Shown here in pieces: positions 17,172 through 20,100 of a stretch of DNA of 64,000 nucleotides. The stretch lies in NCBI RefSeq assembly GCF_012913485.1, contig NZ_CP051774.1, positions 6,262,001-6,326,000 of the forward strand, in the 5' to 3' direction. Origin of the DNA: Luteolibacter luteus. GTDB taxonomy: Bacteria; Verrucomicrobiota; Verrucomicrobiia; Verrucomicrobiales; Akkermansiaceae. Made by a program: the position numbers and the translations under genes. The notes beneath the pieces are model-generated. The model made no database searches. It was not told the DNA's origin and saw nothing but the letters and a program-made list of their open reading frames with translations. Position 1 is the first letter of the stretch; every line of letters begins with the position of its first letter.

Positions 17172-20100
17172 ATGGACGACGATCTCTTCAACACCTGCTT
17201 CTCGGGGCCCGAACAACGCATCGAGGAGCTGCGCGTTGAACTTAAGCGCATCGACGATCTCCGCGTTGAACTTGAACGCCATAATCGCCTCTACTATATG
17301 GAGGCCACTCAGGAGATCTCCGATGCAGAATACGACAAGCTCTTCCGCGAGCTGGAGGAACTGGAGGAGAAGCATCCCGAGTTCGACAACGCGAACTCCC
17401 CCACCAAGCGCGTGGGCGGTGCGCCGCTGGATAGCTTCAAGCAGGTCCGCCATCTGGTGCCGATGCTCAGCATCGACGACGTCTTCGAACTGAAGGACGC
17501 GGAGCAACCCGCGGCCGAGCTCATCGATTTCTACAAGCGCCTGCAGAAGAACCTCGGCCGCGAAGACATCGCGGTGACCGTGGAGCCGAAGATCGATGGT
17601 GTGGCGGTCTCGCTGGTCTACCGGAATGGCTCGCTATCCTATGCAGCCACCCGCGGCGATGGCACCACGGGCGATGACATCACGAACAACGTCCGTACCA
17701 TCCGCAGCATCCCGCTGACGCTGACACCGAAGTCCCCTGCTCCGGCGCCTATTGACCTGAGCCGGATCCTTCCCTACCTTCCCGCCCGTGAGCAGGACCC
17801 ATCAAGCACAGGCACTGGCAGAGCGGCTTTGGAAAGCCCGGCAGAAAGCCTCCGCGAAAGGCTCCTTGCTGACCAGGCAGCAAGTCATGGAGACGATCTT
17901 CAGGAACGGATCCGACAAGAAGCCAAATCCATTCTTGAATGGGGATCTGAAGTTGGTCGGATCCTCGATCCAGAAGCGCTATTTGAGCTCGTCAAAGACT
18001 GGCGGGAACTAGGCGGCCAATCGGAGCACACCGTTTTCTACATCGCGGAACTCGCGCGGGTGGTAAAATTCACCATCCCGCCGAACTTCGGAGCGCAAGG
18101 CAGCATCGCGTATCTCGCCAACATCGGAGCCTGCAACCGGCTCTTCGGCGACGACATCCGCTTTCACGGGATCCTTGAAACCGAGAAGGGCCCCGTCTTT
18201 GTCATCTCCCAGCCTTATGTCGATGGCACGGAACCGAAGCTGGACGAGGTTCGCGGTTGGTTCGAAGCGAATGGCTTCGAGGATGCCGGATATAACCAAT
18301 GGAAGAACGCCGCTGGCACCCGGATCGCTGGCGCGCATGAGGGCGATCTGATCAAGACCGAGGACGGCGAACTTGTTCCGATCGGTCTTCAAGTGCTTCA
18401 CGAGGGCGAGATCATCCCCCGGGTGGCACAGCCCGCGGGTCCCGTCACGGTTCCCACGCTGCTGGAAGTCCGCGGTGAGATCTACATGCCGAACGAGGCC
18501 TTCGCCGCGATGAATGCGGAGCGCGACGAAGCAGGCTTGCAGACCTTCGTGAACCCGCGCAATGCCACTGCTGGCGCGCTCAAGCAGCTCGATCCGAAGG
18601 AGGTCGCGAAACGTCCCCTCGCCTTCCTCGCCCATGGACTGGGTGCTTATGAAGGCCCGGAATTGGCATCGGAGACCGACTTTCACCAGTTGCTCGATGA
18701 GCTCGGAATCCCGCGGAACCTGCCGGTCTATTTTGCCGATTCGGAAGAGGAGTTGCGCAAGAGAGTGCTGGCGATCGATGATATTCGCCACGGCCTCGGC
18801 TACGGCACGGATGGTGCGGTGGTGAAGGTCCTGCATCGCGCGGAGCGCACGAAGCTGGGCTTTACCTCGCGTGCGCCGCGCTGGGCTGCAGCCTACAAGT
18901 TCCTGCCGGAGCAAAAGGAGACCACGATCAACAACATCACCATCCAGGTAGGCCGCACCGGGGTGCTGACGCCGGTGGCGGAGCTGGAGCCGGTCTTCGT
19001 TTCCGGCACCACCGTCTCCCGTGCGACGCTGCACAATGAGGAGGAGATGCAGCGGAAGAAGATCTACAAGGGCGCACGGGTGGTGATCGAAAAGGCCGGT
19101 GAGATCATCCCCGCGGTGGTCAGGGTCATCGATCCTCCCGCGGATCTGGAACCTTTCCGTCTCGATCTCTATGTCGAGGAGAAGTGCCCATCCTGCGGCG
19201 GTCCGATTTCCAAGGAAGAGGGCTTCGTGGCCTGGCGCTGCACGAACTTCGAGTGCCCCGCGCAGGCGGTCTCGAAGATCCGCCAGTTCACCTCGCGGAA
19301 GGCTCTCGACATTGAGGCCGTCGGCGGGATCGTGGCAGAGGCCTTGGTGAACCGAGGGCTCTGCCGCACGCCGCTGGATCTCTTCAAGCTGGATCCGGCA
19401 GAGCTTCCCTCGCTGAACCTCGGCACCGACACCGAGCCGCGCCGCTTCGGCGAAAAGAATGCCGCGAAGGTGATCGAGGCGCTGGAACGCGCCCGCGAGA
19501 AGCCGCTCGATCGATGGCTTTTCGCGATGGGCATCCGCCAGGTCGGTGAATCGGCCGCGAAGGAACTCGCGCGCTTGCACGAGCACCTCACCGACATCGC
19601 GCATCTGAAAGATGGCGAGCCGGTCTGCTCGCCGATCCTCGAAACGATCTCCGCGATTTCCCACAAGGAAGCCGAAGCCAAGCACATCTCCCCGCGCAAC
19701 AAGGAGAACCTGCCCGCGAGTGATGAGGAGAAGAAGGAGCGCGACACCGCCTACAAGGCGCTGAAGAAAGAAGCCGACGCCCTCAAAAAGACCCTGGCGG
19801 CCTACACCGTTTCCCCGGATGCCGGACAGGTGGTGGCGGAGTCGGTGATCACCTTCTTCAAATCGGAAGGCGGCGTGCATGTTCTGGAGCGCCTGAGCGA
19901 TCTCGGTATCAACCCGAAGTCCGAGAACTACCTGCCCAAGCCCGCCGAAGCCGATCTGTCCGCCCTTCCGCTGGCGGGCAAGACCTTCGTCATCACCGGC
20001 ACCCTTTCCATGGGCCGCGATGACATGAAGCGCCACCTCGAAGCGAAAGGTGCCAAGGTCTCCGGCTCCATTTCCGCCAGCACCGACTTCCTCCTCTCCG

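Follow-up and report, generated by a model that had tools for sequence, protein, structure and literature searches.

The ligA gene of Luteolibacter luteus carries an in-frame insert

The window, that is, the whole stretch of 64,000 nucleotides of the Luteolibacter luteus genome that was analysed, contains the gene for NAD+-dependent DNA ligase (LigA) as one frame of 1023 codons plus stop. About 235 of these codons form an in-frame insert in the adenylation domain, and the other LigA domains were found to be intact in the family search. The original prediction had placed a small kinase-like domain here without loss of the ligA frame, and this was borne out by the single open frame at 17121–20192. 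It had estimated LigA to be about 330 residues longer than usual; compared with the 671 aa of E. coli LigA, the protein is longer by about 350 residues, and the insert accounts for about 235 of them. The borders 17751–18430 do fall on the insert, and about 17724–18452 describes it better. In E. coli LigA, the insertion site corresponds to the hairpin at about H160–P165, just before E173, as counted manually on an alignment with 2owo. The features of the locus are as follows:

17121..20192, + strand: ligA, NAD+-dependent DNA ligase with in-frame cassette (one open frame; NF005932, 697 bits)
17724..18452 (about), + strand: insert with linkers, between the motif of the nucleophile Lys (K157 here) and LLEVRGE (alignments)
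17752..17780, + strand: promoter-like sequence TTGACC-17-TACCTT, 7 nt before the GTG of the small ORF (inspection; family-wide pattern)
17788..18012, + strand: small ORF in the +1 frame, GTG start, 74 codons and TAG, putative antitoxin or partner (codon and profile tests)
17919..18012, + strand: dual-frame stretch, kinase N-terminal helix and C-terminal part of the small protein (codon-position test)
17919..18374, + strand: Kinase-PolyVal domain, LigA residues 267–418 (PF18762 match; fold of a close relative)
18066..18068, + strand: conserved ATP-binding Lys, kept (residue 316; kinase alignment)
18330..18332, + strand: catalytic Asp position, changed to Gly (residue 404; kinase alignment)
18345..18347, + strand: metal-binding Asn position, changed to Asp (residue 409; kinase alignment)
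18384..18386, + strand: DFG-equivalent Asp position, changed to Gly (residue 422; kinase alignment)

The essentiality of LigA in this genome is a matter of general knowledge only, since the genome holds, besides its one LigA, two genes with an ATP-dependent ligase domain. The window segment returned zero matches in PHROGs and NCBIfam, and neither a target-site duplication nor a fixed insertion end was seen by eye in the aligned junctions. Inteins have conserved splice junction residues and a Hint fold; an intein or intron was rejected here, as the insert is without splice motifs, its junctions and linkers vary in length and sequence, and no Hint family was found in it in Pfam up to E 1.

The inserted kinase belongs to the Kinase-PolyVal family and is catalytically degenerate

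The proposed relationship to PF18762 held in the profile search, where the isolated segment scored 30.1 bits (E 5.6e-07; cut-off 27), and the whole LigA protein scored 26.7 bits, just under the cut-off. Kinase-PolyVal is described in passages of PMC5512222 as a minimal kinase without the C-terminal subdomain, having a Glu before strand 2 and a Gln in the last strand, and these two residues were found in the E36 and Q98 columns. The model of the window LigA fusion (mean pLDDT 80.8, pTM 0.49) predicts that both the ligase and the kinase domains are folded, their arrangement being unsure; the kinase part has pLDDT of about 64–83. Runs of pLDDT below 50 were confined to model residues 164–197, which are the LigA-frame reading of the stretch coding for the small ORF only and appear as a disordered linker, and to the exit linker at 390–400. 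The kinase of an intact relative (G009, 165 residues) was modelled with pLDDT 88.5 and pTM 0.80, and its best Foldseek matches were protein kinases, weak ones, such as PknB 4eqm (E 1.2e-3, probability 1.0, TMq 0.40); zero matches were obtained with this kinase at E 0.001 or below. Such weak matches are expected because most of the C-lobe is absent. By score and fold, the kinase is a member of PF18762, and it is catalytically degenerate in the window.

The two Asp-to-Gly changes noticed earlier are real (residues 404 and 422), and an additional Asn-to-Asp change was found at residue 409; the loss of these catalytic residues agrees with the expectation that catalysis is probably gone from the window copy. 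The dead kinase is an exception among the copies. The catalytic Asp is present in 62 of 63 aligned kinases, the sole exception being the window copy, and the Asn position is Asn in 61 other kinases with one row gapped. The second Asp position is Asp in 41 others and gapped in 21, because the sequence pieces were cut short. Each of the three lost residues in the window (18330–18386) lies one A-to-G change away from a codon of the ancestral residue. The codon constraint of the window kinase is ordinary, with a position-3 share of differences of 0.59 (range 0.53–0.69 in 28 copies), and general relaxation of this constraint was not seen in it. Because the constraint has been retained, the death of the kinase may be recent, or the copy may be kept as a pseudokinase rather than as wreckage.

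A small ORF in the +1 frame overlaps the kinase

The first third of the insert had been noticed for its low third-position GC, and this was confirmed: GC3 is 0.50 in its 86 codons, and the flanks reach 0.81. The reason is that the stretch codes in the +1 frame, where GC by codon position of the small ORF ending at TAG 18010–18012 is 0.47/0.46/0.73, against GC3 of 0.50 in the LigA frame there. Furthermore, over the first ~70 codons of the insert, DNA identity exceeds LigA-frame protein identity in every pair of six LigA copies (0.75 vs 0.54 for the window genome and G006), because in all six copies the +1 frame is a conserved small ORF. A six-sequence model of this ORF also matched +1 ORFs that overlap kinases outside LigA (L045, E 3.7e-11; L047, 1.3e-6; L046, 7.3e-6), and the ORF was visible by eye in 22 of 22 inspected copies. 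For the family-wide tests, 101 kinase hits were reduced to 87 copies by removing those with a late start in the profile, those identical over 200 nt and three without the EH motif, and 85 had enough upstream DNA for frame and codon tests. The +1 frame was open for at least 55 codons in 84 of the 85 and the +2 frame in 15, and the +1 ORFs start and stop in similar places across copies and have homologues in other hosts.

When differences between copies were counted by host-frame codon position in the region that belongs to the small ORF only, 28 of the 30 copies labelled LigA gave 0.460/0.323/0.292, ten NspC copies 0.396/0.292/0.286 and eight OppD-type copies 0.577/0.395/0.376. The peak at LigA-frame position 1 is the third position of the small ORF, and within-codon permutations were as extreme in 2 (LigA), 24 (NspC) and 0 (OppD-type) of 5000 each. 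The differences within the kinase peak at position 3 in all sets. For five standalone copies, the +1 signal fell short of significance (459 of 5000). In the overlap stretch, it was significant in LigA only (56 of 5000) and not in NspC (2308), OppD-type (877) or standalone copies (4075). By these sequence tests, the +1 frame is coding and under selection. This result disposes of a simple one-domain fusion and amends the original prediction of a lone mobile domain in ligA: the domain lies in LigA in frame, and it is one half of an overlapping gene pair.

No convincing antitoxin family was found in Pfam for the small protein when 35 members were scanned; the best match (4.9e-04, one member) was to DUF1233, a putative excisionase. 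As a separate observation, in a standalone subfamily (L050, L053 and L157–L159), the kinase frame and the small ORF start within a few bases of each other, so that their overlap begins nearly at the start of the kinase.

A promoter-like sequence precedes the small ORF

The arrangement TTGACC-17-TACCTT-7-GTG spans 17752–17790 in the window. A start of the small ORF was found in 84 copies, and 72 were used for counting after removing near-identical upstream stretches. The pattern TTGnnn-16..18-TAnnnT-6..8-start was present in 19 of the 72 copies, whereas 500 shuffles gave 0.08 on average and 2 at most; TAnnnT at a distance of 6–8 was present in 22, and at slid positions the mean was 1.4 and the highest count 4. 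The strict pattern was absent from 53 of the 72 copies under a crude choice of start codon, and the window copy itself is outside the 19 because the start rule took the first ATG, passing over GTG. The short spacing between the putative promoter and the start suggests that it would fit a leaderless message.

The gene pair occurs in several unrelated host genes

A LigA match was obtained in 53 of 57 related genomes searched. The alignment of 30 LigAs with returned loci, from the window genome and its relatives, showed the insert in six, all at one site, and a plain hairpin in 24, which rules out a lineage-wide LigA extension. In the genus, 5 of 18 genomes have the insert in LigA, and two, both incomplete, are without any LigA match. 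Among the loci of named genome records, a close kinase lies within LigA in 27 of 30, three of these 27 being contigs already found among the related genomes. In 24 of the 27, LigA continues in frame on both sides of the kinase, and L067, L079 and L083 show the C-terminal flank only.

The cassette was also found in carboxynorspermidine decarboxylase (NspC) at L087 and L088. The 386 genomes of the order added further NspC copies, C-terminal fusions to Opp/Dpp-type ABC ATPases and one fusion to GlgB; the GlgB frame ends at a contig edge on its N-terminal side and may represent either an insertion or an N-terminal fusion. Host labels were given by eye from the flanks except for ten proteins tested with NCBIfam and those tested with Pfam. 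In NCBIfam, all 4 NspC proteins tested and one GlgB scored over the cut-off, and OppD models were the best for the four ABC ATPases tested, all below the cut-off; L054 has Pfam ABC_tran and oligo_HPY over the cut-off. In 68 genomes of one family, ten have an NspC frame of 645–687 residues with a split match, and in 53 the match exceeds the cut-off of the family and lies in a frame of 379–522 residues.

The overlapping pair also stands alone outside host genes and is present in polyvalent-type proteins, in which the kinase domain lies beside LPD3 (L046) or MuF_C and LPD3 (L049, whose kinase was found via sequence comparison with the window insert only). A kinase match occurs in 192 of the 386 genomes of the order and in 23 of 288 in a thin sample of the phylum. 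The relationship to polyvalent-type domains that had been suspected is upheld, and the insert is not confined to this genome, given the 27 LigA loci and the other host genes. One copy (L122) lies in a 102-kb contig listed in IMG/VR; the scan of viral contigs with this copy found one contig, identical to L122, and the first such scan found zero relatives. A tblastn search with the G009 kinase gave zero matches in 50,697 phage or 72,556 plasmid records.

The window genome contains one embedded copy and one distant standalone copy. The latter (L162, G000:C1:2850590-2851168, − strand) has catalytic residues that are intact by eye and a +1 ORF of its own, which is well conserved in G003 (L163).

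The cassette has been gained or lost and replaced at one site in LigA

A tree of the LigA core was made from 50 LigAs, 26 of them with the insert, which was removed. It was a quick search with SH-aLRT support only, and it omitted three duplicates, three non-LigA loci and five LigA loci (L067, L076, L079, L083, L084), four of which are cut by contig ends and one of which, L079, is without the LigA N-terminal part in frame. The insert state changes eight times on this tree, at least seven of the changes being forced by starred branches; for instance, G009 with the insert and G007 without it are sisters with support of 100. The tree of the inserts is in conflict with that of the core, as L071 groups with L062 in the core (100) and with L074 and L120 in the insert (100/100). 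The patchy state and the conflict between the trees indicate that gain or loss and replacement of the cassette took place at a single fixed site, probably via recombination in the flanks.

Two further observations were made on ligA loci. In the fragmented assembly of G006 (L043, G006:C216, about 5056–6665), the cassette-bearing ligA gives way to a divergent LigA 3′ half; behind this come an ORF that is SWIM-like by eye and then what is left of the native ligA 3′ end (95% to G008 over 127 nt), as if a piece with a replacement 3′ half had entered ligA. The right (exit) linkers of ligA inserts often have a period of 7, which was the best of periods 5–10 in 23 of 31 distinct linkers with self-match of 0.36–0.78 (for example L072, L081, L065 and L044; the window copy is not so), and the heptamers differ (CAAAATT, CCCAATC, CATCAAC).

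The small ORF outlasts the kinase

The pairing was also approached from the small ORF alone, using a model of 35 sequences partly taken from the same places as its matches. It found 86 places in 77 of the 386 genomes. A kinase match overlaps or follows within 150 nt at 72 of the 86, and one relative frame was seen in 72 of the 72. The other 14 comprise L186 with a kinase right behind, four undecided places (L178 and L183 lie at contig ends, L185 and L188 are weak matches) and nine at which the kinase is deleted, broken or missing:

L175, L176, L177, L179, L180, L181, L182, L184, L187: small ORF kept (in part at L187), no whole kinase

L175 and L176 are LigA genes from which the kinase has been deleted in frame and the small ORF kept; L176 is a complete LigA frame of 846 codons, and L175 is in frame up to the contig end. 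In the reverse direction, a kinase without an open +1 frame was found once in 85 copies (L140). Small ORFs without a whole kinase are therefore commoner than kinases without the +1 frame, the 9 of 86 and 1 of 85 stemming from different searches so that the rates are not strictly comparable. Such asymmetry of loss would be expected of a toxin paired with its antidote.

Among the nine places, the kinases of L179 and L184 are apparently frameshifted beside the small ORF, and assembly errors are possible, for example in L179. At L187 (G232), an oppD-type gene is followed by a stop and then by a partial small ORF with no kinase, which could be a former fusion site.

Discussion

The reading that we favour, and hold to be fairly probable, is that the insert in ligA is a two-gene toxin–antitoxin-like cassette made of a promoter, a leaderless small protein and an overlapping minimal kinase. 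The cassette would have entered ligA with the kinase frame in phase and free of stops, after which the LigA promoter would drive a ligase–kinase fusion. The fused LigA would stay active, since flexible linkers would set the kinase apart on a hairpin at the surface. The internal promoter, if used, would drive a separate small protein that restrains the kinase; the kinase is presumed to be harmful and the small protein to neutralise it. Inside a needed gene, the cassette could be removed only by precise or in-frame events, and the loss of kinase activity would be tolerated where the loss of the small protein would not. A cell would then escape by inactivating the kinase, through point changes in the window copy and through in-frame deletion in two relatives, and the small ORF would stay. 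With toxin–antitoxin modules, the cassette shares the make-up of two small, consistently paired genes in which the putative antitoxin comes first, and the pattern that the putative antitoxin is found alone more readily than the putative toxin. We call the pair toxin–antitoxin-like and do not file it as a toxin–antitoxin system, and on the present evidence it would work like one.

An unlikely refinement of this explanation is that the pair serves in anti-phage defence: a phage that shuts down host expression would leave the labile small protein to decay, and the kinase, thereby freed or activated, would cause abortive infection. The kinase family was described, in the passages concerned, from phage–host conflict proteins (Iyer 2017, PMC5512222), Rpn intragenic toxin–antitoxin pairs are reported in part of PMC10327210 to defend against phage, and the swapping of variants fits an arms race. 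Against this, PADLOC returned nothing for three kinases and two small proteins, and its matches to the L054 fusion fall in the ABC part. We regard it as rather improbable that the kinase (a pseudokinase in the window) serves LigA as a regulatory domain, sensing or phosphorylating something and being tuned by the small protein. The codon constraint kept on the kinase, the window included, and the folded kinase modelled with moderate confidence within the fusion would agree with such a role, but a regulatory domain would hardly change presence about eight times on the LigA tree, be swapped as variants between LigAs, occur as the same pair in unrelated enzymes and be lost as a kinase from two LigAs.

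It is quite improbable that the insert is a neutral passenger, a remnant of a polyvalent-type gene that fused into ligA and is tolerated and slowly decaying. The dead kinase of the window, the related domains in polyvalent-type proteins and the L122 copy in a contig listed as viral are compatible with it; the purifying selection on both the kinase frame and the +1 frame across 28 LigAs and the catalytic Asp kept in nearly all aligned copies speak against decay. Conservation of the +1 frame as a DNA or RNA signal, or as a frame reached by frameshifting from LigA, is very improbable: the conserved promoter-like sequence upstream would suit a signal, but the third-position pattern of the +1 frame recurs in three host families, and the ORFs start and stop in similar places with homologues in other hosts. 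An assembly chimera can be practically dismissed, as the genome is a single contig and LigA flanks in frame with the kinase recur in 24 of 27 loci of other records.

Returning to the toxin–antitoxin-like cassette, its features can be compared with those of known systems. In polymorphic toxin and immunity cassettes, the immunity gene normally follows the toxin with no overlap in another frame. These resemble the present cassette in combining a swappable toxin part with a dedicated small partner, and differ in that the frames overlap in the insert and the host protein is no secreted toxin. The Kinase-PolyVal (PF18762) of polyvalent proteins, as given in passages of PMC5512222, is the same minimal kinase domain as in the insert, and cassette-like recombination has been suggested there (Iyer et al. 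2017). A small overlapping ORF, an internal promoter and insertion in a housekeeping gene, all of which the insert has (the promoter being putative), do not appear in those passages, and the word “overlapping” is absent from the main text of PMC5512222. Rpn pairs, in the part of PMC10327210 considered, have the antitoxin within the toxin gene as the insert does; however, the Rpn antitoxin is the separately translated C-terminal part of the toxin, whereas the small protein of the insert is out of frame and at the 5′ end, and the ligA pair sits inside an unrelated gene, unlike Rpn pairs. Rickettsia palindromic elements, as described in part of PMC10969869, are likewise selfish-looking DNA in frame inside unrelated metabolic genes, but they are about 150 bp and present in many copies per genome, whereas the cassette measures 0.7 kb and consists of two genes, one of them for a folded enzyme, with a promoter-like sequence belonging to the pair. 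The insert was therefore not classed as such a short multi-copy repeat of about 150 bp, the window genome having two copies. Among the matches listed in open-licence full texts, there was no description of the cassette arrangement, the name Kinase-PolyVal occurred only in PMC9758233, and the Rpn pairs and the Rickettsia palindromic elements were the nearest systems described.

More broadly, we put forward with somewhat less than an even chance that Verrucomicrobia-related bacteria harbor a class of selfish toxin–antitoxin units adapted to lie in frame with ligA, nspC, an oppD-type gene and glgB, with the antitoxin in a second frame under a leaderless internal promoter, and that the dead kinase and the deletions are host escapes. 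If true, a conflict module can persist once its frame is joined to that of a needed gene, a route to stability for which no description was found for toxin–antitoxin systems among the matches listed in open-licence full texts. An annotated domain family thereby becomes a two-gene family with an unannotated overlapping protein. The intact, point-dead, in-frame deleted and absent states form a natural series in one essential gene, in which the ways that cells disarm such units could be followed. The host and the module would then share one stretch of DNA, and the toxin would be undeletable without a frame-perfect event.
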